35,539 bases of DNA from positions 1 through 35,539 of the forward strand of contig JAATFA010000180.1 in the NCBI GenBank assembly GCA_015655445.1. Direction: 5' to 3'. The notes under the pieces were generated by a model. It worked only from the letters and a program-made list of their open reading frames with translations. It had not been told where the DNA came from and searched no databases. Source of the DNA: Actinomycetales bacterium (GTDB lineage Bacteria; Actinomycetota; Actinomycetes; Actinomycetales; Microbacteriaceae). Within the stretch, counting starts at the first letter, position 1. Each line of letters opens with the position of its first letter. This document shows, in pieces, positions 3,491 through 15,936 of this stretch. The position numbers and the translations under genes were made by a program.

Positions 3491-3580
3491 GGTGGCGTGT
3501 CCGAGCGGCCTAAGGAGCACGCCTCGAAAGCGTGTGAGCGTGAGAGCGTTCCGTGGGTTCAAATCCCACCGCCACCGCCA
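3491..3580 (+). tRNA. tRNA-Ser (anticodon CGA), CCA encoded
   Basis: Acceptor GGTGGCG/CGCCACC, D-arm, anticodon loop CTCGAAA, long variable arm, GGTTCAAATCC T-arm, terminal GCCA. Confidence 0.96.
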
Positions 3581-3683: not shown

Positions 3684-5054
3684 CTAGGCGACCGCCTCGC
3701 CGATCGCCGTCAGACGCTCCGCCTGGGCGCGGAACCGATCGGCGAGCTCGTCGACGTCGATGAGCTCGGGCTCGTCGACGAGGTAGTTCTGCATGCGGTT
3801 CCGGAACGGCTCGCGCCAGTGCGCGGGGACGTTCGACTCGCCGATCACGGCGCCCGTGATGCTCGCGGCGGTCGCCCCCGTGCAGTCGTTGTCGAACCCC
3901 ATCGCGACCGTCTCACCGACGACCTTCGTGAAGTCGCGGCCGCCGAGGAGGATGCCGAAGGTGACGTAGAGCGCGTTGTTGATCGCGTGCCCCTCGAACA
4001 TGCGCCCGTAGCGCTCGTGGACGAGCCGTGCCGCGTCGCGGTACCCCTCGACCTCGGGCGCGACGTCGAACGCCCAGCGCAGCGCGTCCGCGAGGAGCGA
4101 CGTCTCGGGGATCTCCTGCAGCCCGATCCGGAGCGCCTCGACGGGGTCGTCGACGCAGAACGCGGCCGCGACGCTCGCGGCCATGTACATCGTGCCGTAC
4201 ACGCCGTTGCGGCGGTGGTTGATCGAGGAGTCCCGGTAGGCGAGCTCGGCCGCCTTCTCCGGCCAGCCGGGGGCGGCGTATCCCCACGCGTCCGCGCGCG
4301 TCCACGCCGCGATGGACTGGATGTTCGGGTTGCGCAGCGTGCCCGCCTGCTCGGCCGGCACGCCCTCGGCGAGGTTGAGGAGCATGGTGCGCTCGCCCCA
4401 GTAGGCCCCCCAACTGCCGTTCGTGGGCGAGGTGAGCGTGAAGTTGCGCTGCCACAGCGCGGCCTGCTGCTCGTGCGTGAACCCCGGCCCGAAGTTCTCG
4501 AGCGTGAGGAGGCCGATGAGCGTGTAGACGGTGTCGTCGTCGACCGGGATGTACGCCATGCTCCCGCGCGTGAGATCCGAGTGGTTGCCGACGATGTAGC
4601 GGGGCTGCCCGGGGCTGCGCGTGTACTGGAAGAAGTCGGTGGGAGGGTAGGCCTCACCGAACTGCCGGGACCAGTTCTCCATCTGCTCGACGCTCCAGAA
4701 CTCGACGGTCGCCCCGAGCGTGCACCCGGCGCCGCGGCCGAGGAAGGACCCGCGCCACCGCTCGCGATAGTCGGTCGGCACCCGGTCGGTCATGCGGCGC
4801 ACCCCCGCGGGCCGCAGCGCGCGGATCGCCTCGAGGTCGTCGGGCTCGTCGGCGGACGGCCCCGCGCCGCGGACGAGTCGGTCGAAGCGGTCCATCGCGG
4901 ACCTGAGCTCCTCGCTCACGCGCTCGACGATCTCGGCGCCGGCGTCCGCCTGCTGGAGCTCCGCCGCCAGGCTCGAGTAGCGCGAGAGCTTGTCGGCGTA
5001 GTCCTCGAACTCCTTGTGCGGCGGCTCGGCGTAGTGGACGTCGCTGATCTTCAC
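3684..5054 (-). CDS. ADP-ribosylglycohydrolase (ARH) family protein
   Basis: GTG start at 5054 with upstream GAAAGGAAA. Motifs: RWRGSFLGRGAGCTLGATVEFW (Gly-rich N-term), VDDDTVYT (DDT), MGFDNDCTGATAASITGAVIG (D-x-D metal motif). Confidence 0.87.
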   Translation of the reverse strand: MKISDVHYAEPPHKEFEDYADKLSRYSSLAAELQQADAGAEIVERVSEELRSAMDRFDRLVRGAGPSADEPDDLEAIRALRPAGVRRMTDRVPTDYRERWRGSFLGRGAGCTLGATVEFWSVEQMENWSRQFGEAYPPTDFFQYTRSPGQPRYIVGNHSDLTRGSMAYIPVDDDTVYTLIGLLTLENFGPGFTHEQQAALWQRNFTLTSPTNGSWGAYWGERTMLLNLAEGVPAEQAGTLRNPNIQSIAAWTRADAWGYAAPGWPEKAAELAYRDSSINHRRNGVYGTMYMAASVAAAFCVDDPVEALRIGLQEIPETSLLADALRWAFDVAPEVEGYRDAARLVHERYGRMFEGHAINNALYVTFGILLGGRDFTKVVGETVAMGFDNDCTGATAASITGAVIGESNVPAHWREPFRNRMQNYLVDEPELIDVDELADRFRAQAERLTAIGEAVA

Positions 5055-5083
5055 GGGGTTTCCTTTCTGATGGGGAGCATCGG

Positions 5084-5968
5084 TCACTTGATGGCGCCGT
5101 TCGTCATGCCCTCGACGAACCGGCGCTGCAGCAGCACGCTCACGACGATCAAGGGCGCGACGATCGTGACGATCGCGGCGCAGATGAGGGGGGCGTTGGA
5201 TCCGCCGAACTCGGTCGTGAAGAAGCTCAGGCCGAGGGAGACCGTCCGCAGGTCGTCGCTCGTCGCGAGCAGGAGCGGCTCGATGTACATGCCCCACGTC
5301 CACACGCCCGAGAACACCGCGAGCGTCGCGAGCCCGGGCCGCGCGAGCGGCAGCATGACGCGGAAGAACACCGTGAGCTCGCCCGCGCCGTCGATGCGCG
5401 CGGCCTCGGCGAGCTCGTCCGGTATGCCGAGGAAGAAGGTGCGCATGTAGAACGTCGCGAACGGGAGCGTCATCGCGACCGCGACGACGACGATCCCCGC
5501 TCGCGTGTTGATGAGGCCGAAGAACTGCACGACGTCGTAGACGGAGAACATGATCGAGCTGAAGGGCACGGTGAGGGCGACGACGAGGGAGAGCATCATC
5601 GCGAGGCGGCCGGGGAAGCGGAATCGCGCGAGGCCGTATCCGGCGGCGGACGCGATCGCGACCACGAGCACGACGACCGATCCCGTGTAGATGAGGGAGT
5701 TCGGCACGTACGACGAGAAGTTAGCGGTGTTCCACGCGTCCGCGAAGTTCGAGAACCGCCATTCGAAGCCGCCGACGGGGTTCTGCGCGTACGCCTCCGG
5801 CGAGCGCAGGGCCGTCATCGCGATCCACAGGAGCGGGAGCGTGATGAGGAGGAAGAACACGATCATGAGCCCATAGCTCAGCCACGTCGGCGCGAAGCGG
5901 ATGGTGTCCCGGCTCAGCTCGCGGGGCCGGCCCCGGCGGCGCAGCGGCATGCGGATCTCAGCTGTCAC
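5084..5968 (-). CDS. Carbohydrate ABC transporter permease (MalG-like, CUT1)
   Basis: Multi-TM protein with EAARIDGAGELTVFFRVMLPLARPG (EAA loop) and C-terminal RRFVEGMTNGAIK. Confidence 0.94.
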   Translation of the reverse strand: MTAEIRMPLRRRGRPRELSRDTIRFAPTWLSYGLMIVFFLLITLPLLWIAMTALRSPEAYAQNPVGGFEWRFSNFADAWNTANFSSYVPNSLIYTGSVVVLVVAIASAAGYGLARFRFPGRLAMMLSLVVALTVPFSSIMFSVYDVVQFFGLINTRAGIVVVAVAMTLPFATFYMRTFFLGIPDELAEAARIDGAGELTVFFRVMLPLARPGLATLAVFSGVWTWGMYIEPLLLATSDDLRTVSLGLSFFTTEFGGSNAPLICAAIVTIVAPLIVVSVLLQRRFVEGMTNGAIK

Positions 5969-6899
5969 GGACGTTCCTCCGCCCCGTCAGGAGGGTGAAG
6001 GCGAGCGCGATGAGGACCATGACGCACGCGATCGCGGACGCGTGGCCGAAGTCGCTCTGGCTGAACGCCTTCGTGTAGGCGTAGGTGCCGAGGAGCTGGG
6101 TCGCGTTGCCTGGGCCTCCCTGCGTCATGACCCAGACGAGGTCGAACGCCTTGAGGCCGGCGATCGTCGCGAGCATCGTCATGAGGGCGAGGAAGGGGCG
6201 CATCGACGGGATGACGACGTAGCGCAGGCGTTGCCACCGGCCCGCGCCGTCGACGGCGGCGGCGTCGAGGAGGCTCGGGTCGAGGCTCTGCAGGCCGCCG
6301 AGCGCGACGACGACGAAGAAGCCCGTCGAGGCCCACACCTGGGTGAGGGCGAGCACCCAGATGGCGCCGCCCGGGCTCGCGAGCGGGCTCGACGCGAGGA
6401 CGGGGATGTGCAGGGCGTCGCCGAGCGCGGCGAGACCGCCGTTCGCGGGCTGCCACAGGCGGAGCCACACGAGGCCGACGATCGCCGGGCCGAGCATCTC
6501 CGGGATGAGGAAGACGGTGCGGAACACGACCCAGCCGCGCGGGCGCACCCACAGGAGCACGGCGATCGCGAAGCCGAGCACGACGGAGACGAAGAAGCCG
6601 CCGATGTAGATGAGGTTGCGCACGACGCTCGCCTGGAACGTGCCGTCCGCGAGGATGTCGGCGAAGTTCTGCAGGCCCACGAAGGTCCGCGTGGGCGAGA
6701 AGCCGTCCCAGTCGGTGAGCGAGAGCGCGACGGTGCCGACGATGGGGTAGATCACGAACACGGCGACGAGCACGATCGCGGGCGTCGCGAACACGAGACC
6801 GGTGATCTGCGAGCGGTGCACGCCCTTGCCGGCCTTGCGCGCTCGGGGGGCGCTGCCGGCGCCGCTCCTCACGGCGCCGGCGAGCGAGTGGCTGCTCAT
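5958..6899 (-). CDS. Sugar ABC transporter permease (MalF-like, CUT1)
   Basis: EAA-type loop DAAAVDGAGRWQRLRYVVIPSMRP; VMTQGGPGNATQLLGTYAYTKAF motif. Start overlaps the SBP stop (ATGA). Confidence 0.94.
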   Translation of the reverse strand: MSSHSLAGAVRSGAGSAPRARKAGKGVHRSQITGLVFATPAIVLVAVFVIYPIVGTVALSLTDWDGFSPTRTFVGLQNFADILADGTFQASVVRNLIYIGGFFVSVVLGFAIAVLLWVRPRGWVVFRTVFLIPEMLGPAIVGLVWLRLWQPANGGLAALGDALHIPVLASSPLASPGGAIWVLALTQVWASTGFFVVVALGGLQSLDPSLLDAAAVDGAGRWQRLRYVVIPSMRPFLALMTMLATIAGLKAFDLVWVMTQGGPGNATQLLGTYAYTKAFSQSDFGHASAIACVMVLIALAFTLLTGRRNVRDS

Positions 6900-8197
6900 A
6901 TCTTGTCCTTCACCCATTGCGCCTGGAGGTCCTTCAGGTACTGGTCGACAGTGATCTGCCCGTCGAACACCTCCTGGCCCTCGCGACCGATGAGGTCGTT
7001 GAACTTGTCAGAGCTCACGAGGTCGACGGTCGTGCCCGTGTCCTCGCTGTGGTTGATGAGGATGTCGGCACCCTGTTTGAAGAGGTCGGGGATCCGCAGC
7101 GCGTCGACGTCGATGCCCGTGACGGGCGGCAGGAAGCCGGCCTTCTCGATGTACTGCTCGGCGATGTCCTTCTGGAACATGAAGTCGACGAACTCGAGGG
7201 CGGCTTTCTGGTGCTCGCTCTTCTTGTTGACGACGAAGGCCGAGCCCATGCCCTGCAGGTTGAACTGCCCCTTACCGCCGGGGACGGCGACCCATGGGGC
7301 GAAGTCGTATGCGCTCTTGGGGTCGGCCGCCGCGACGGGCCCAAGATTGCCGGTGAACGCGGGCGCGAGAGCGACGGCCTTGTTGCCGGTGAGCATGTCG
7401 ATCGCGGCACCGTTGTCGAGCGTGCTCATCTCGGGGATGAAGCAGTCGGCCTTCTTCGCGGCGTCGAAGACCGTCTGCACGGCCGTCTTGATCTCGGGGT
7501 CGGTCCACTTGCCCGACTTGTGGCTCACGAAGTCCTTCTCGGCCTGCGGCCCGAGGGCGTTGACGATCGGGAGCCCGAGGTAGAAGTACCAGATCCACCC
7601 GCCGCCGCCCGCGCCGGTCGCGATCGGCACGAGGTCGTTCTTGCGCGCGGCCTGGCAGAAGCTCGTGAGCTCGTCGACCGTCGTCGGCACCTTCGTGCCG
7701 AGCTTGTCGAGGAGCGTGGTGTTCCACAGGACGCCCGAGAGCTCGCTCTCGAGGCCGAGTCCGTAGAGCTTGCCGTCCGCCGTCGTCGTCCACGCGAGGC
7801 CCGAGGGGGTGATGCGGTCCTTCCAGCCGTAGGTCTTGGCCGCCGCGTCGAGGTCGAGCGCGAGGCCCGCGTTGAACAGGTCCCTCCCCGTCGAGACCTC
7901 GGCGTAGACGACGTCGGGCGTCGAGCCGCTGCGGAACGCGTTCTTCGCGAGGGAGGGCAGCTGCGCCTGCGGCTGATAGCGCGTCTGCTTGACCGTGATG
8001 TCGGGGTGCTCCTTCTCAAACTCGGCGATGATCGCGTCCTCGGCCTTCGTCGTGTCCGTCGAGGTGATCTGGTTCCAGTAGGTGAGCGTGATCTTGCCGC
8101 CCCCGCTGTCGCCGCCGGATGAGCAGCCGGTGAGCACGGCCGCGAGCACCACGCCAGCGGCGCCGGCCGCGACCAGCCCTCGAAGTGGTCGAAACAT
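6896..8197 (-). CDS. Extracellular solute-binding lipoprotein (ABC importer 1)
   Basis: MFRPLRGLVAAGAAGVVLAAVLTGCSSGGDS lipobox; KITLTYWNQITSTDTTKAEDAIIAEFEKEHPDITVK typical of family 1 SBPs. Confidence 0.94.
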   Translation of the reverse strand: MFRPLRGLVAAGAAGVVLAAVLTGCSSGGDSGGGKITLTYWNQITSTDTTKAEDAIIAEFEKEHPDITVKQTRYQPQAQLPSLAKNAFRSGSTPDVVYAEVSTGRDLFNAGLALDLDAAAKTYGWKDRITPSGLAWTTTADGKLYGLGLESELSGVLWNTTLLDKLGTKVPTTVDELTSFCQAARKNDLVPIATGAGGGGWIWYFYLGLPIVNALGPQAEKDFVSHKSGKWTDPEIKTAVQTVFDAAKKADCFIPEMSTLDNGAAIDMLTGNKAVALAPAFTGNLGPVAAADPKSAYDFAPWVAVPGGKGQFNLQGMGSAFVVNKKSEHQKAALEFVDFMFQKDIAEQYIEKAGFLPPVTGIDVDALRIPDLFKQGADILINHSEDTGTTVDLVSSDKFNDLIGREGQEVFDGQITVDQYLKDLQAQWVKDKI

Positions 8198-8211
8198 GTC
8201 TCCTCCTCGTT

Positions 8212-8240
8212 GAGTCGCTTCGTCGAGTCGCTTCGTCGAG
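8212..8240. repeat. 13-bp tandem direct repeat (GAGTCGCTTCGTC x2 + GAG)
   Basis: Read directly in the intergenic region upstream of the SBP gene. Confidence 0.9.
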
Positions 8241-8326
8241 TGGCGCCCCGGCTCCGCGTGACGGCCTCGGGCGGCCTCGTCAGGCACACGATAGGGGCGG
8301 GCCAGCGGCGGCCGCACCGCGAGTTG

Positions 8327-8368
8327 GGAAAAGGTTTCGCGCCCCTCTCGGGCAGGAAATTGTTTCCT
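8327..8368. promoter_or_regulatory. Pair of operator-like palindromes GGAAA-N3-TTTCC/G between importer 1 and the divergent lacI gene
   Basis: AGGAAATTGTTTCCT at 8354-8368 (perfect 6-bp arms); GGAAAAGGTTTCG at 8327-8339 (one mismatch); 28 bp apart. Confidence 0.6.
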
Positions 8369-8449
8369 CGGCGAGCTTGTGCGGCGCCCCGCGAGGCGAT
8401 AACGTGCGCGGGGACTCGCGTCGGCGAGGTCTCCGGTTCGAGGTCGGTC

Positions 8450-9460
8450 ATGGTGGACGAGCGCTCGTCGCGAACGACGATCTACGACGTCGCGCGCGCC
8501 GCGCGCGTCTCGCCTGCGACCGTCTCGAAGGTGCTCAACGGGCGCGGCTCGTTCCGCACGGAGACGCGTCAGCGCGTCGTCGCCGCGGCGCGCCGCCTGC
8601 GCTTCCGCCCGAGTCTCATCGCGCGGGACCCCGAGTTCCGCGACTCGCTCATGATCGGGGTGCTCACGGCCGACAGCTACGGCCGCTTCACGATCCCGCT
8701 CATGCTCGGCGCCGAGGACGCGTTCGGCCCGGGCAAGATCTCCGTGCTCATGTGCGACGCGCGCGACGACCCGATCCGCGAGGAGTACTACCTGCGCTTC
8801 CTGCTGCACCGTCGCGTCGACGGCGTGATCGTGACGGGCAAGACGAACGATCCCCGGCCCTCGCTCGGACGCGACCTCCCTTTCCCTGTGCTCTACGCCT
8901 ACCAGCCGTCGGAGGACCGCAAGGACTGCTCGATCGTCCCCGACAACCTGCGGGTCGCCTCCCTTGCGGTGGAGCACCTCGTGCAGACGGGACGGCGCCG
9001 CATCGCGCACGTGACGGGACCGATGCGCACGACGGTCGTGCGCGAGCGCATCGAGGGCGCGCACCGCGCCCTCGCCCGTCATGGCCTCGCCCTCGCGCTG
9101 CCCGAGCTCGACGGGGAGTGGAGCGAGCGCTGGGGGCGGGAGGCGGCCGGCATCCTGCTCGCCTCGGGCGCCGGGGTGGACGGCGTGTTCTGCGCGAGCG
9201 ACGAGATCGCGCGCGGCGTCGTCACGGGGCTGCGCGAGGCGGGCGTCCGCGTGCCGGGACAGGTCGGGGTCGTCGGCGTCGACAACTGGGTCGTGCTCGC
9301 GGAGGCGTCGCGCCCGCCGCTCACGACGATCGACCTCGAGCTGCGGGAGCTCGGGGTCACGGCCGCGCGCATGCTCGCCGACTCGATCCGGGGCCTCCGG
9401 TCGCTCCCCCGCGGCGTCCACGCGCATCCCGGACGCCTCGTCGTGCGCGAGTCCACCTGA
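8450..9460 (+). CDS. LacI-family transcriptional regulator (LacI-1)
   Basis: TTIYDVARAARVSPATVSKVLNGRGSF HTH; GVDGVFCASDEIARGVVTGLREAGVRVPGQVGVVGVDN effector domain. Confidence 0.94.
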   Translation: MVDERSSRTTIYDVARAARVSPATVSKVLNGRGSFRTETRQRVVAAARRLRFRPSLIARDPEFRDSLMIGVLTADSYGRFTIPLMLGAEDAFGPGKISVLMCDARDDPIREEYYLRFLLHRRVDGVIVTGKTNDPRPSLGRDLPFPVLYAYQPSEDRKDCSIVPDNLRVASLAVEHLVQTGRRRIAHVTGPMRTTVVRERIEGAHRALARHGLALALPELDGEWSERWGREAAGILLASGAGVDGVFCASDEIARGVVTGLREAGVRVPGQVGVVGVDNWVVLAEASRPPLTTIDLELRELGVTAARMLADSIRGLRSLPRGVHAHPGRLVVREST

Positions 9461-9484
9461 CAGGGGCGAGCGCGCCGGCGTGGC

Positions 9485-9515
9485 CCGGCGGCCCACGCTG
9501 GACGAGGGCCGCCGG
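9485..9515 (+). terminator. Hairpin after LacI-1 (10-bp perfect stem)
   Basis: CCGGCGGCCC (9485-9494) / GGGCCGCCGG (9506-9515), 11-nt loop; no clear T-tract. Confidence 0.5.
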
Positions 9516-9522
9516 ACAGGGC

Positions 9523-9582
9523 TTGACCTCGTCGGGCCTCATTGGTAGCGTTACCATGCTCGGCTTGGTAGCGTTACCATGC
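9523..9582 (+). promoter_or_regulatory. Promoter with two identical LacI-type operators
   Basis: TTGACC (9523-9528), 17 bp, TAGCGT (9546-9551). Perfect 18-nt direct duplication TTGGTAGCGTTACCATGC at 9542-9559 and 9565-9582; near-palindromic core TGGTAGC/GTTACCA with a central CpG. Confidence 0.8.
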
Positions 9583-9609
9583 CGGGTTCGCCGAAGAGCA
9601 AGGAGAGAG

Positions 9610-10536
9610 ATGCCCAAGGGTGTGACCATCCCGGAGTTCCAGAACCGCCCGCGGGTCATCATCGACACCGATGCGAAGAACGAGGCCGACGACCAGTACG
9701 CGATCGTGCACGCCCTGCTCTCGCCGAGCCTCGACCTGCGCGGATTCGTGGCCGCGCACTTCGGCACGCGCCCGGACAAGAGCGTGCGAAGCATGAAGGA
9801 CAGCAAGGAGGAGATCGACCTCCTCGTGCGCCTGCTCGGCATGGAGGGACGCCACCGCGTCGAGGAGGGAGCCGCCGTCGCCCTGCCCGACGCGAAGACG
9901 CCCGTCGTCTCCGCCGGCGCCGACCTCATCGTCGAGGAGTGCTTGCGGGAGGACCCGCGACGTCTCTACATCGCCTTCTTCGGGCCGCTCACCGACATGG
10001 CGACCGCGCTCATGCTGCACCCGGAGATCGCCGAGCGTGACGTGACCGTCATCTGGATCGGCGGATCCTCGTACGACCGCGCGACCCACCCGCGCTACTG
10101 GCCCGAGTTCAACCTCGTCAACGACCTCGTCGCGGCCAACATCGTCTTCTCCTCCGCGATCGACGTGTGGCAGATCCCGATGTCGGTCTACCTGCAGATG
10201 GCCGTGACCTACGCCGAGCTCGTCGACAAGGTCGCGCCGCACGGCGAGATCGGCCGATACCTCGCGCAGCAGCTCTTCGACTGGAACGCGAAGTACGTGC
10301 AGCAGGCGATGGAGTACCGGTCGCTCGGCGACTCGCCCGCCGTGGGCGTGCTGCTCAACCCTTACTGCGGCGAGTTCGAGACGCGGCCCGCGCCGAACTT
10401 CCGGTGGGACGCGAGCTACGACTTCTCCCGGGAGAACCGGCCGATCCGCGTCTACAAGGACATCGACACGCGATTCGTGCTCGACGACTTCTTCGCCAAG
10501 CTCAAGCTCTTCGCCGAGGGCGAGTCGCTCGTCTGA
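9610..10536 (+). CDS. Nucleoside hydrolase-like protein (NH-1)
   Basis: RVIIDTDAKNEADDQYAIVHALLSP; FFGPLTDMATAL; VTVIWIGGS; RBS AAGGAGAG. Confidence 0.85.
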   Translation: MPKGVTIPEFQNRPRVIIDTDAKNEADDQYAIVHALLSPSLDLRGFVAAHFGTRPDKSVRSMKDSKEEIDLLVRLLGMEGRHRVEEGAAVALPDAKTPVVSAGADLIVEECLREDPRRLYIAFFGPLTDMATALMLHPEIAERDVTVIWIGGSSYDRATHPRYWPEFNLVNDLVAANIVFSSAIDVWQIPMSVYLQMAVTYAELVDKVAPHGEIGRYLAQQLFDWNAKYVQQAMEYRSLGDSPAVGVLLNPYCGEFETRPAPNFRWDASYDFSRENRPIRVYKDIDTRFVLDDFFAKLKLFAEGESLV

Positions 10537-10594
10537 CCTCCGCCCCCACGACGGCGAAGCGGCCGGGGCGACCCATCGATCGAAAGGACACAAC

Positions 10595-11893
10595 GTGGTG
10601 CACACGAGAACACGGTGGCGGCGGGTGATCGCGGGCGTCGCCATGTGCGCCGTCGCGGGCCTCGGGCTCGTCGGATGCAGCTCCGGGGGCTCCTCCTCCG
10701 ACGACACCTTCAAGGTGTGGCTGTACTCCGACCCCTCCCAGGCGGAGTCGCAGATGTGGCAGGCGTCGCTCAAGGAGCTTCAGAAGCGGCACCCGGATCT
10801 CACGATCGACTTCCAGCAGAAGGCCTTCCAGCAGGTGCGGGCGAACGGCGCGATGGTGCTGAGCTCGAGCAGCGCCCCCGACGTGCTGCAGTTCAACCAG
10901 GGCACGGGCGACACGGGCTTCCTCGCGAAGAACGGGCTCATCGCCAACCTCGACGACTACGCGAAGAAGTACGACTGGGCCTCCGCGATCCCCACGGGCG
11001 GCCAGTTCGTCGACAAGTACGACAGCAAGGGAGTCATGGGCTCGGGGGACTGGTACGGCGTCGCCGACTTCCCGATCTTCGTGACCCTCTACTACAACAA
11101 GACGTGGTTCGAGAAGTACGGCCTCACCGCGCCCACGACGTTCGACCAGCTCGAGACGGACATGCAGACGTTCGTCGACAACGGCGTCACGCCGCTCTCC
11201 CTCGCGGGCGGCGAGTACCCGGGATGGCAGCTGTGGTATGAGCTCGCGCTCGCGAAGGCCGAGCGGAGCTGGGTCGACGACTTCATCCTCTTCAAGGGCA
11301 AGGTCGATTTCCACGGACCCGAGATGACCTACGGCGCCGAGAAGATGGCCGACTGGGTCAAGCGCGGCTTCATCTCGTCGTCCGCGACGAGCCTCAAGGC
11401 CGACGACGCGGCCACCCAGTTCGCCTCGGGCAAGGCGCCCATCCTCATCTCCGGCAGCTGGTACTCGGCGACCTTCCAGAGCGAGGTCAAGGACTTCGAC
11501 TGGGGCGTGCTGCCCTTCCCCGGCAACAAGCTCTTCGAGGGATCGGGCGGCAACACGCTCGTCGTGCCGACCTCCTCGAAGCACAAGGACCTCGCGGCCG
11601 AGTTCATCGACATCACGCTCTCGCCCACGATGCAGGCCATGCTCGGCAACCTCGGCAACGTGCCCATCACGGGCGACGCGACGGGCGTCGACGACGCGCA
11701 TGCCCAGGAGATCATCCAGGTCTACAACCAGATCCAGGACGGCCTCGCGTACTGGCCCGACATGTCCGTGCCGGGCTACGACCCGCCCATGGTCAACGCG
11801 TTCCAGTCCCTCATCAACGGGACGATGACGCCGTCGCAGGTCCTCGACGCCATCAAGGCGCCTTATGAGAAGGGCGCCGCCGACTACCGATAG
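10595..11893 (+). CDS. Extracellular solute-binding lipoprotein (ABC importer 2)
   Basis: VIAGVAMCAVAGLGLVGCSSGGSSS lipobox; HPDLTIDFQQKAFQQVRANG. Start GTG at 10595 or 10598. Confidence 0.93.
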   Translation: MVHTRTRWRRVIAGVAMCAVAGLGLVGCSSGGSSSDDTFKVWLYSDPSQAESQMWQASLKELQKRHPDLTIDFQQKAFQQVRANGAMVLSSSSAPDVLQFNQGTGDTGFLAKNGLIANLDDYAKKYDWASAIPTGGQFVDKYDSKGVMGSGDWYGVADFPIFVTLYYNKTWFEKYGLTAPTTFDQLETDMQTFVDNGVTPLSLAGGEYPGWQLWYELALAKAERSWVDDFILFKGKVDFHGPEMTYGAEKMADWVKRGFISSSATSLKADDAATQFASGKAPILISGSWYSATFQSEVKDFDWGVLPFPGNKLFEGSGGNTLVVPTSSKHKDLAAEFIDITLSPTMQAMLGNLGNVPITGDATGVDDAHAQEIIQVYNQIQDGLAYWPDMSVPGYDPPMVNAFQSLINGTMTPSQVLDAIKAPYEKGAADYR

Positions 11894-11908
11894 TCGGCAC
11901 GACGCATC

Positions 11909-11943
11909 GCGCGGGAGCCGGCCGTCGCTTCCGGCTCCCGCGC
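11909..11943 (+). other. Intercistronic 13-bp hairpin between SBP and permease genes
   Basis: GCGCGGGAGCCGG (11909-11921) / CCGGCTCCCGCGC (11931-11943), 9-nt loop, no T-tract. Confidence 0.8.
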
Positions 11944-11968
11944 CCCGGCACGAGTGCGAGGTGGATCC

Positions 11969-12916
11969 ATGAGTGACACGCAGCTGACGTCAGCCCGCCC
12001 GAGGGCGCGCCGTGCGCGATCCCCGCTGCAGGACCGCAGGGGGTACTGGCTGTACTTCATCCCGGGAGGAGTGCTGCTCCTCGCGGTCATCCTCGTGCCC
12101 TTCGCCTGGGGCTTCGTGCTGTCGTTCAGCCGGTGGTCGGGCGTCGGCGACATCGTGTGGGTCGGGCTCGACAACTACCGGCAGCTGCTCTCCGACAGCG
12201 TCTTCCTGAGCTCGTTCGCGAACGTGCTCGCGATGATCGTCGCGGTCGTCGTCATCCCCACGCTCCTGGGCCTCGTGATCGCCGCCGTGCTCTTCGACTA
12301 CCTCGGCCGGCGATTCGCGGGCAACGTCGTCGCGGTGCTGCGCGCGACCTTCTACCTGCCGCAGATCATCCCGATCGTGATCGCCGGGATCGTGTGGGGC
12401 TGGGTGCTGCAGCCCGACGGATCGCTCAACACGATCCTGCGCGCGGTCGGTCTCGGCTTCCTCGCCCAGAACTGGCTCGGGCAGCCCCACCTGGCCCTCG
12501 GCTCGCTCATGACGGTGCTCGTATGGGTGCAGATCGGCTATCCCGTCGTCGTCTTCATGGCTGCCCTCTCGCGCGTCGACCCCGAGCTCTACGAGGCTGC
12601 TCAGCTCGACGGCGCGGGCGCGATCCGGCGGTTCCGCGCGATCACGATCCCCCAGATCCGGCCGGAGACGTTCGTTGTCGTGCTCACGTGCACGGTCGCG
12701 GCGCTCAAGGTCTTCGGCCCCGTCTACGCGCTCACCTCGGGCGGCCCCGGCAATGCGACGTATGTGCCCTCCTACCTGTCGTACCAGACGTTCTTCCAGA
12801 AGCTGCAGGTGGGGTACGGCTCGGCGATGGCGACCGTGCTCGCGCTGCTCGTCCTGCTGGTCTCCCTCGCCATCCTCTGGGCACAGCGCCGCAGCGAGGC
12901 GAAGGAGGAGCGATGA
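11969..12916 (+). CDS. Sugar ABC transporter permease (MalF-like)
   Basis: EAAQLDGAGAIRRFRAITIPQIRP EAA loop; ALTSGGPGNATYVPSYLSYQTFF. Confidence 0.94.
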   Translation: MSDTQLTSARPRARRARSPLQDRRGYWLYFIPGGVLLLAVILVPFAWGFVLSFSRWSGVGDIVWVGLDNYRQLLSDSVFLSSFANVLAMIVAVVVIPTLLGLVIAAVLFDYLGRRFAGNVVAVLRATFYLPQIIPIVIAGIVWGWVLQPDGSLNTILRAVGLGFLAQNWLGQPHLALGSLMTVLVWVQIGYPVVVFMAALSRVDPELYEAAQLDGAGAIRRFRAITIPQIRPETFVVVLTCTVAALKVFGPVYALTSGGPGNATYVPSYLSYQTFFQKLQVGYGSAMATVLALLVLLVSLAILWAQRRSEAKEER

Positions 12917-13794
12917 CCGCGCCCGTCCCCGGGATCCCCGCACGCACGGCGGAGGCTCCCCGCCGCGCGCGCCGCCGTGACGTCGGCCGCTGGGTTATGC
13001 TCGCGATCTTCGTCGCCGTCGGGATCGTCATCGTCTCGCCGATGCTGCTCGTCGTCGTCAACGCGTTCAAGACGCAGCCGGACTACACGACCCGCGGCTT
13101 CCTGAGCCTGCCGCAGCCGTGGACGTTCGACCAGATCTCGACCTACTGGACGCAGTCCGACTTCCCGCTCAAGCTCGCGAACTCGTTCATCATCTCCGCC
13201 GCGACGTCCGTGCTCGCGGTGCTCGTCTCGCTCCTCAACGCGTATGCGATCGGCATCGGCCGCGTGCGGGGGCGCCTCACGCTCGTCGTGCTCTTCCTGC
13301 TCGCGAACCTGCTGCCGGCCGAGGCGATGATCTACCCGCTGTACTACGTCGCGAAGCAGGTCGGGCTCTACAACACGCAGCTCGGCGTCATCATCATCTT
13401 CGTCGCGATCCACAGCGCCTTCGGCACCTACCTGCTCGCCTCAGTGTTCGGCACGTTCCCCACCGCGCTCCTCGAGGCCGCGGCGCTCGACGGCGCGTCG
13501 CGCTGGCGCATCCTGTGGCGCGTGGTCTTCCCCATCTCGCGTCCGACGCTCGTCGTGCTCTTCACGCTCTTCTTCGTGTGGACGTGGAACGAGTTCTACA
13601 TCCCGCTCGTCATGCTCGTCGACGACAGCGTGCAGACGGTCCCGATCGCGCTCATCGCCCAGCAGGGGCAGCACCAGACCTCGATCCCGCTGCTCAACGC
13701 GGGGGCGCTGCTGAGCCTCGTGCCGACGCTCGTGTTCTTCTTCATCTTCCAGCGCACCCTCACCCGCGGGGTGACCGTGGGCGCCGTCAAGTGA
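12913..13794 (+). CDS. Carbohydrate ABC transporter permease (MalG-like)
   Basis: LLEAAALDGASRWRILWRVVFPISRP; C-term RTLTRGVTVGAVK; ATGA overlap with the preceding gene. Confidence 0.94.
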   Translation: MTAPVPGIPARTAEAPRRARRRDVGRWVMLAIFVAVGIVIVSPMLLVVVNAFKTQPDYTTRGFLSLPQPWTFDQISTYWTQSDFPLKLANSFIISAATSVLAVLVSLLNAYAIGIGRVRGRLTLVVLFLLANLLPAEAMIYPLYYVAKQVGLYNTQLGVIIIFVAIHSAFGTYLLASVFGTFPTALLEAAALDGASRWRILWRVVFPISRPTLVVLFTLFFVWTWNEFYIPLVMLVDDSVQTVPIALIAQQGQHQTSIPLLNAGALLSLVPTLVFFFIFQRTLTRGVTVGAVK

Positions 13795-13814
13795 CCGTCG
13801 AGAGCAGGAGCCCC

Positions 13815-14813
13815 ATGACAGACCGAGACCTCCTCGCCGCCGGCCTGCGCCCCGCGCGCGCCGATCGCGTGGTGCTCCCGCGCTGCCGCGTCATCATCGA
13901 CAACGACTTCTCCGGAGACCCGGACGATCTCTTCGCGCTCGTCCACCACGTGCTCTCGCCGTCGGTCGACATCCGCGCGATCGTCGGCTCGCACATCAGC
14001 GTGGACGACGAGTGGGACCGCTCGCAGGCGCAGGCCGAGAACGCCGTGCGCGTCGTGCACGAGACGCTTGCGGCGATGGGACTCGACGGGGAGTACCGCG
14101 TCGTGCAGGGTTCGAACCACGGCCTCGCCTCGCGCGACGAGCCGCGTCCGTCGGAGGCCGCGGACGCGATCGTCGCCGAAGCGATGCGGGAGGACAGCGA
14201 CCTGCCGCTGTTCGTCCTGTGCGGAGGTGGGCTCACCGACATCGCGAGCGCGTATCTGCTCGAGCCGCGGATCGCGCAGCGGCTGACCCTCGTGTGGATC
14301 GGCGGCCCCGAGTACGAGGGGCTCGCGTCGCCGCCGCCCGATCCGGGGCCGATGGAGTACAACCTGCGCATCGACCTCACGGCGGCTCAGGTCGTCTTCG
14401 ACTCGACGATCCCGATGTGGCACGTTCCGCGCGACGTCTACCGCCAGTACCTCATGTCGTATGCCGAGATCGTGCGGAACGTGCGCCCGCACGGGGAGAT
14501 CGGCCGGCTCCTCCACGACGCGATCGTTCGCGTCATGCGGTGGACACGCGAGGGCGGAGCGCCGGGGATCGGCGAGACCTACATCATGGGCGACCAGCCC
14601 CTCGTGACCCTCACCGCCCTGCTCTCGTCGTTCCACGCGGACGGCTCGTCGAGCGCATACGTGCGGCGCCGCGCGCCGCGCATCACCGACGCGGGCACGT
14701 ACGAGGACGCGCCCGACGGCCGTGAGATCCGCGTCTACGTGCGCGGCGATGCACGACTGACCTTCGACGACCTGTTCGCGAAGCTCGCCTGGTTCGCCGG
14801 CTCTGCCGCGTAG
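13815..14813 (+). CDS. Nucleoside hydrolase-like protein (NH-2), paralogous to NH-1
   Basis: CRVIIDNDFSGDPDDLFALVHHVLSPSVDIRAIVGSH; GGGLTDIASAYLLEPRIAQRLTLVWIGGP; PHGEIGRLL shared with NH-1. In-frame GTG at 13791 is an alternative start. Confidence 0.85.
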   Translation: MTDRDLLAAGLRPARADRVVLPRCRVIIDNDFSGDPDDLFALVHHVLSPSVDIRAIVGSHISVDDEWDRSQAQAENAVRVVHETLAAMGLDGEYRVVQGSNHGLASRDEPRPSEAADAIVAEAMREDSDLPLFVLCGGGLTDIASAYLLEPRIAQRLTLVWIGGPEYEGLASPPPDPGPMEYNLRIDLTAAQVVFDSTIPMWHVPRDVYRQYLMSYAEIVRNVRPHGEIGRLLHDAIVRVMRWTREGGAPGIGETYIMGDQPLVTLTALLSSFHADGSSSAYVRRRAPRITDAGTYEDAPDGREIRVYVRGDARLTFDDLFAKLAWFAGSAA

Positions 14814-14841
14814 ACCGCGACAGCGCTAGAGTTCAGCCGAG

Positions 14842-15936
14842 ATGTCGGTTTCCGAGTCATCCCCGCACGCGGGCGCGCGGCACGGCCGTCGCCCGCTTGC
14901 GATCGCGGACATCGCCAAGCTCGCCGGCGTGTCGCCCATGACCGTCTCGCGCGTCGTCAACGGTGGCGTCGGCGTCGCCGAGGCCACGCGCCGTCGCGTG
15001 GAAGCGGTCATGCGTGAGGTCGACTTCACGCCGAACGCGTCCGCGCAGGCGCTGCGCGCGGGCCGCGCGCGCTCGATCGGCTTCCTCAGCCTCACGAGCG
15101 AGCTCGTCGGCGCGCTCGCAAAGGTGCTCGTGAGCCTCGAGCAGCAGGCGCGGGCGGCGGGCTACGCGGTCACGGTTGTGACCCTCGACGACATCAACGA
15201 GCAGACGGTGCACCAGGCGCGGCGCCAGTTCCGACAGAACGCCGTCGAGGTCGTCGTCGTCATCTCCCCCATGGTCGCGAGCCGCGCGGCCGTCGAGATG
15301 CTCGCGCGCTCGATCCCATGCGTGGGCATCTGGACGCCGCCCGGCACGATGCGCCCGGTCGCGGCCCCCGACAACGAGCGCGGCGGGTATCTCGCGACCT
15401 CCCACCTGCTCGACCTCGGGCACCGGAGGATAGCGCACATTTCGGGTCCGCGCGGCTGGATGGAGACGGAGAACCGCGAGCGGGGCTGGCGGCGCGCGCT
15501 CGAGGAGCGCGGGCTCGCTCCGGGGCCTGTCATCGCGGGCGACTGGGGACCGGGATCCGGGTTCGAGGCGGCGCAGCAGATCCTCGAGGACCCGGACGTG
15601 ACCGCGATCTTCGTCGCATGCGACGCGATGGCGCTCGGGGTGCTCGACGCTGCGCGGCTCATGGGCCGCTCGGTGCCGGAGGACATCAGCATCATCGGGT
15701 ACGACGACATCCCGGAGGCGCAGTTCTACTTCCCGCCCCTCACGACCATGGCGCAGCGGTTCTACGAGCTCGGCGAGCGCGCCTTCCATGTCGCAATGCA
15801 GGAGATCGGCGAGGAGGAGGAGCAGGACGCCCAGCCCGCGCAGCTCGACCCCGTCCTCGTCGTCCGCAGCACGACCGCGTCGCCGCGCTCGCGCGCCCGC
15901 GCGATCCGGCGGCGGAGGGCGACGCGCACGACGTGA
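14842..15936 (+). CDS. LacI-family transcriptional regulator (LacI-2)
   Basis: LAIADIAKLAGVSPMTVSRVVNGGVGV HTH; canonical hinge PNASAQALRAGRA; DISIIGYDDIPEAQFYFPPLTTM. Confidence 0.94.
   Translation: MSVSESSPHAGARHGRRPLAIADIAKLAGVSPMTVSRVVNGGVGVAEATRRRVEAVMREVDFTPNASAQALRAGRARSIGFLSLTSELVGALAKVLVSLEQQARAAGYAVTVVTLDDINEQTVHQARRQFRQNAVEVVVVISPMVASRAAVEMLARSIPCVGIWTPPGTMRPVAAPDNERGGYLATSHLLDLGHRRIAHISGPRGWMETENRERGWRRALEERGLAPGPVIAGDWGPGSGFEAAQQILEDPDVTAIFVACDAMALGVLDAARLMGRSVPEDISIIGYDDIPEAQFYFPPLTTMAQRFYELGERAFHVAMQEIGEEEEQDAQPAQLDPVLVVRSTTASPRSRARAIRRRRATRTT

Follow-up and report, generated by a model that had tools for sequence, protein, structure and literature searches.

A Microbacteriaceae gene island with NH-fold and ARH-fold hydrolases and two CUT1 importers as a candidate system for scavenging D-apiose glycosides

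Proteins with the folds of nucleoside hydrolases (NH) and ADP-ribosylglycohydrolases (ARH) are encoded beside two CUT1 importers on a contig from a bacterium of the Microbacteriaceae (assembly GCA_015655445.1, contig JAATFA010000180.1; the whole stretch of 35,539 nucleotides analysed is referred to as the window), which raises the question of what these importers bring in and which bond the hydrolases cleave. Within positions 3684-15936, open reading frames, family matches and coding bias reveal 11 genes with GC3 values of 0.92-0.98 and full-length family matches: a minus-strand block in the order SBP-permease-permease-ARH and, on the plus strand, LacI-1, NH-1-SBP-permease-permease-NH-2 and LacI-2. 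The gene list and order of the initial annotation are borne out by the reading frames, family matches and GC3, and its placements hold apart from small corrections, namely an ARH start near 5054 and the limits given below for LacI-1, NH-1 and NH-2. Gene content and family matches likewise support its description of the island as a catabolic unit that combines paired hydrolases with CUT1 importers. As it also noted, genes for downstream metabolism are missing, no ABC ATPase, kinase, isomerase or phosphorylase gene being found within the island. In Actinomycetota, the ATPase of CUT1 systems is often shared and encoded elsewhere.

The substrate originally favored was a ribosylated or nucleoside-like compound, with unusual N- or O-glycosides as a further option. 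This latter option stands, whereas a main function in the catabolism of nucleosides or ADP-ribosyl compounds is probably wrong, as the genes around homologues of the two NHs and the ARH protein point to D-apiose. Our preferred reading, to which we assign a probability of roughly 0.58, is that the island is an apioside-scavenging system, composed of importers and of NH- and ARH-fold furanosidases for D-apiose glycosides. The two CUT1 importers would take up small plant glycosides bearing a D-apiofuranosyl residue, and NH-1, NH-2 and the ARH protein would hydrolyse the apiofuranosyl bond in the cytosol, with a metal in the active site, Ca2+ for the NH fold and Mg2+/Mn2+ for the ARH fold, binding the furanose cis-diol as it does that of ribose. 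Since the cis-diol of D-apiofuranose is like that of ribofuranose, the reuse of both metal-dependent folds appears chemically plausible. The released apiose would be oxidised via an apionate-type operon on another contig of the same genome (C184), and the two LacI regulators would govern the two blocks. We infer the substrate, the bond cleaved, the specificity of the importers and the regulation of the island from its gene content, the folds and metal-site positions of its enzymes, the loss of the NH leaving-group histidine, and the recurrent linkage of homologues to apiose pathways. The broader proposition, that the NH and ARH superfamilies have each given rise to cytosolic D-apiofuranoside O-glycosidases with dedicated importers, both constituting new GH families, is more tentative, and we hold it at somewhat less than even odds.

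To our knowledge, neither the NH nor the ARH fold is known to include apiosidases, and GH140 is the sole bacterial apiosidase family that we know of. The reaction predicted here is the same as that of the GH140/PF13204 apiosidases, but the NH and ARH folds are unrelated to these enzymes. PF13204 genes are co-located with relatives of NH-2 or of the ARH protein, and in some loci they could already supply the apiosidase activity, which counts against our reading. In the papers searched, apiose was not found together with a nucleoside hydrolase, nor were the further combinations sought. If the apioside reading is correct, two enzyme types would be added to apiose use, many annotations as "nucleoside hydrolase" or "ADP-ribosylglycohydrolase" in plant-associated and gut bacteria would be misassigned, new biocatalysts for apiose removal would become available, and orphan CUT1 importers would gain a concrete substrate. 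Apiose, a branched sugar, is a component of many plant glycosides, with more than 1,200 metabolites containing it (PMC10602602).

NH-1 (9610..10536, plus strand; PF01156, 3e-22) and NH-2 (13815..14813, plus strand; PF01156, 2.7e-18), both predicted apiofuranosidases of the NH fold, are 37% identical. They fall in two separate groups of the NH tree, in which the tool flags long branches, NH-2 belonging to the second clade; the pair therefore does not appear to be the product of a recent duplication. The structure model of NH-1 (pLDDT 92) matches inosine-uridine nucleoside hydrolases (IU-NHs) in Foldseek, with an E-value of 1.9e-16. In common with those PF01156 enzymes, NH-1 retains the metal- and ribose-site residues D21, D27, D28, E166, N168 and D241, and such residues are largely retained across 40 aligned NH-1/NH-2-type proteins. 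The DD pair is kept in both window NHs; in some members of the NH-2 clade, its second Asp is Gly. Unlike IU-NHs, however, the window proteins possess a two-residue insertion in the DxD..DD motif, and they differ in the residue preceding the last Ca ligand. In nucleoside hydrolases this residue is a histidine that activates the leaving group, and it is Gly in 40/40 of the aligned NH-1- and NH-2-type rows, the window pair included. NH-1 and NH-2 thus combine the fold and the Ca- and ribose-binding residues of a nucleosidase with the loss of its leaving-group histidine, which makes a leaving group other than that of a nucleoside plausible. Both proteins also score far under every NCBIfam nucleosidase cut-off. 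On inspection by eye, no signal peptide is recognisable on NH-1, NH-2 or the ARH protein.

These features bear directly on the alternative that the island takes up and hydrolyses nucleosides, ribosides or ADP-ribosyl compounds. The two folds and their conserved metal-site positions would suit such substrates, and other ARH or NH subfamilies do occur with ribokinase-like genes (loci L076, L085, L107 and L109). Yet the subfamilies nearest to the window proteins are not beside ribokinase, and the position of the histidine, Gly in all NH-1/NH-2 members, is Trp in the ribokinase-linked outgroups L107 and L109, as it is throughout the outgroups L107-L110. With the scores under the nucleosidase cut-offs also against it, we regard this alternative as quite improbable. 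L107 and L109 form a Lachnospiraceae/Treponema pair whose NH genes encode WD at the histidine site and lie beside ribokinase-family genes; these NHs are possibly true ribosidases.

The linkage of the NHs to apiose is strong. The characterized D-apiose and D-apionate operons proceed through AplK and the transketolase AptAB, through ApnO-OiaK-OiaX, or through ApnO-OiaC, and homologues of NH-1 and NH-2 are neighbors or members of such operons. Genes related to NH-1 (51-54% identity) adjoin apiose pathways of three kinds, each in another phylum: in Microvirga the pathway is a RuBisCO-like apionate operon, in Lachnospirales it is a transketolase operon, and the genome of the window itself has an apionate operon on contig C184. 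In Microvirga ossetica, the run comprises a Gfo/Idh gene, a gene for a 642-aa protein, a GntR gene in the opposite orientation, and genes for a RuBisCO-like protein and a four-carbon acid sugar kinase, and ends with PGDH_C (ApnO type)-SBP-permease-permease-NH. This final gene encodes a protein 51% identical to NH-1, and the order is kept in M. lotononidis. In the Lachnospirales genome G697, an NH gene (54% to NH-1) adjoins LacI-isomerase-AptA-AptB-AplK, and an NH-1-like gene accompanies isomerase-AptA-AptB-AplK in three other Lachnospirales genomes as well. Contig C184 (genome G000; loci L048 and L088) carries a third NH (54% to NH-1) with a CUT1 importer that is 41-44% identical to the Microvirga CUT1, as well as genes for LacI, a TIM-like isomerase, OiaC-like and ApnO-like proteins, an SDR and a 721-aa protein. 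Unlike these operons, the island contains no sugar-metabolising genes and provides only for import and predicted glycoside cleavage; no apiose pathway gene lies in the window, and those of this genome are found on C184. On that contig, CAACCGGTTG is found upstream of the TIM-like gene and again upstream of the OiaC-like operon. The 638-721 aa proteins gave no Pfam match that would identify them as lactonases. When 297 genomes of the phylum were searched with NH-1 at E <= 1e-35, the only matches came from its own genome and from one genome of the same family.

Such proximity could also arise from a shared plant-glycoside niche, if the enzymes in fact act on different furanosides from plant glycosides or pectin, such as arabinofuranosides, ribosides or aceric acid. 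Apiose itself also occurs in pectin. NH relatives are indeed found beside GH78, GH3, GH42, GH43, GH28-like and rhamnose genes, and apiose genes are missing from most NH-1-like loci of Lachnospirales: beyond G697, only 3/20 have an apiose operon within ~10 kb, the remainder being beside pectin or other glycosidases, or alone, which also counts against our reading. What the linkage in three phyla involves, however, is complete apiose or apionate operons, one of them with the NH as its last gene, and we consider cleavage of other furanosides unlikely. Three Lachnospirales loci (L147, L148 and L150) hold NH-1-like genes, 59-64% identical to the G697 NH, without a surrounding apiose operon or importer.

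Within the same family, NH-1/NH-2-type proteins, defined by a cut-off that we chose (E < ~1e-25), occur in 23/200 sampled genomes. An apiose pathway marker is present in 21 of these 23 genomes and in 31 of the 177 without the NH type (odds ratio 49; Fisher 2e-12), a test that ignores kinship and plant-associated lifestyle. Relatives of NH-2 (55-58%) have transketolase or apionate genes as neighbors. Four genomes (G042, G129, G141 and G009) carry a split transketolase (AptA) at 82-141 bp from the NH-2-type gene, whose neighbors also include a kinase (AplK) and a SorC regulator, and in L072-L074 such NH-2-type genes adjoin PF13204 Apiosidase-family genes. Other NH loci are located 3-13 kb from a gene of the PGDH_C type, that of apionate oxidoisomerase (G000, G003, G107, G110, G144 and G203), those near ApnO in G203 and G110 being of the NH-2 type. 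Several of these loci also include OiaC-type xylose-isomerase-fold, dihydroxyacetone-kinase-like, RpiB-like or TIM-like genes, which presumably represent the apionate/erythrulose branch of the apiose pathway reported in 2018. Comparison of coordinates by eye revealed no comparable closeness to ApnO genes for the canonical nucleoside hydrolases of the same-family genomes. The AplK, AptA and AptB relatives that adjoin NH-2 homologues correspond to the E. coli apiose operon: compared with E. coli SE15, identity is 35-48% for the kinase, the SorC regulator and both halves of the transketolase. In E. coli, growth on apiose is associated with the presence of this operon (PMC13001218). The ApnO-OiaK-OiaX route has been annotated in a strain growing on apiose (PMC11747546).

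The ARH-fold protein (3684..5054, minus strand; PF03747, 1.1e-40) is a predicted metal-dependent furanosidase of apiose glycosides. It shares with DraG/ARH ADP-ribosylglycohydrolases the full-length PF03747 domain (profile positions 1-287/287 covered), the conserved metal-site Asp positions D172-174, D388 and D390, and the fold, its structure model (pLDDT 94) matching DraG, ARH3 and MJ1187 in Foldseek. In contrast to those enzymes, it has ~100 extra N-terminal residues, DDD in place of the usual TDD and DNDCT in place of DxDT, and its gene sits in an importer operon. Against the NCBIfam ADP-ribosylglycohydrolase equivalogs it remains far under cut-off, with 31.8 of 337 bits. Its closest relatives (54-58%) belong to Treponema, Lachnospiraceae and Clostridia; at E <= 1e-60, no window-type ARH besides that of its own genome was found among 397 sampled genomes of the phylum. 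In Clostridia (L093, 57%), the ARH gene faces isomerase-AptA-AptB-LacI-Apiosidase (PF13204 family)-AplK, and in Treponema (L091, 55%) the same enzymes are accompanied by CUT1 genes, the transketolase frames being partly broken in the assembly. A Lachnospiraceae locus (L092, 57%) shows the same order, SBP-permease-permease-ARH, and contains a further ARH; apiose genes are not nearby, and its genome carries an isomerase-AptA-AptB set at another place. The apiose linkage of the ARH protein is therefore moderate, and this arm of the argument is weaker than that of the NHs, as only two loci are apiose-linked.

The minus-strand importer consists of SBP-1 (6896..8197; PF01547, 2.8e-31), the MalF-type permease pF1 (5958..6917), recognised by similarity to other CUT1 permeases only, and a MalG-type permease (5084..5968; family models). 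Its plus-strand counterpart comprises SBP-2 (10595..11893; PF01547, 7.3e-34) and, by family models, MalF-type (11954..12916) and MalG-type (12913..13794) permeases. Each set thus has the SBP_bac_1 lipoprotein, with a lipobox, and the MalF- and MalG-type permeases of a CUT1 importer, the ATPase gene lying outside the island. The island permeases match MalF/MalG- and UgpA/E-type models with scores far under the equivalog cut-offs, and the window SBPs are just 19-31% identical to those of the relatives. LacI-1 (8450..9460) and LacI-2 (14842..15936), both on the plus strand, match PF00356/PF13377. Two features add to those initially listed: a tRNA-Ser (cga) gene (3491..3580, plus strand; ARAGORN), which borders the island on the left, and the operator-like palindrome TGGTAGCGTTACCA, present twice upstream of NH-1 (9543..9556 and 9566..9579), with 0 further copies at <=1 mismatch elsewhere in the genome sequence searched. 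Between SBP-1 and LacI-1 lies a candidate operator-like palindrome of the ARH block, AGGAAATTGTTTCCT (8354..8368), together with a candidate weaker repeat, GGGAAAAGGTTTCGC (8326..8340). As AGGAAATTGTTTCCT differs from the sites of the NH block, the two blocks may be under separate control.

This difference is in keeping with a further alternative, namely that a variable tRNA site holds two unrelated sugar units side by side and that only the NH block concerns apiose, a proposal that overlaps our own as regards that block. In the same-genus genome G001, the left flank and tRNA-Ser are the same and are followed by a different sugar-gene cluster, so that the position looks like a variable site. 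Co-occurrence of the blocks elsewhere, which the initial annotation had set as a test of its single system, is only partly seen: window-type ARH and NH-1 are adjacent in no other locus found, and both types are present in the genomes G697 and G628. The closest ARH relatives are, however, themselves in apiose loci, and with both types carried by G697 we judge the two-unit alternative unlikely. No convincing attachment-site repeats of the tRNA-Ser were seen at the island's tRNA site. Base composition was considered as a sign of recent horizontal transfer and gave no support, since the island is lower in GC yet equal to its flanks in GC3; transfer is suggested solely by the ARH relatives, which belong to Bacillota and Spirochaetota.

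Further combinations of these enzymes with CUT1 importers were observed. At each of the CUT1 loci L108, L076 and L085, ARH and NH genes of other subfamilies occur together, as in the Lachnospiraceae run SBP-permease-permease-NH-ARH (712 aa) of L108 (5786-12396), where both enzymes accompany one importer. On contig C165 of G000 (L049, 8912-10273), a second CUT1-ARH-LacI unit encodes an ARH 33-36% identical to that of the window, and no apiose genes were observed in its vicinity. In L077-L083, ARH genes occur in pairs together with CUT1 genes and make up a different catabolic locus, to which several members add a ribokinase-like kinase, a CoA-transferase, a citrate-lyase-like protein and an FGE/EgtB-like protein.
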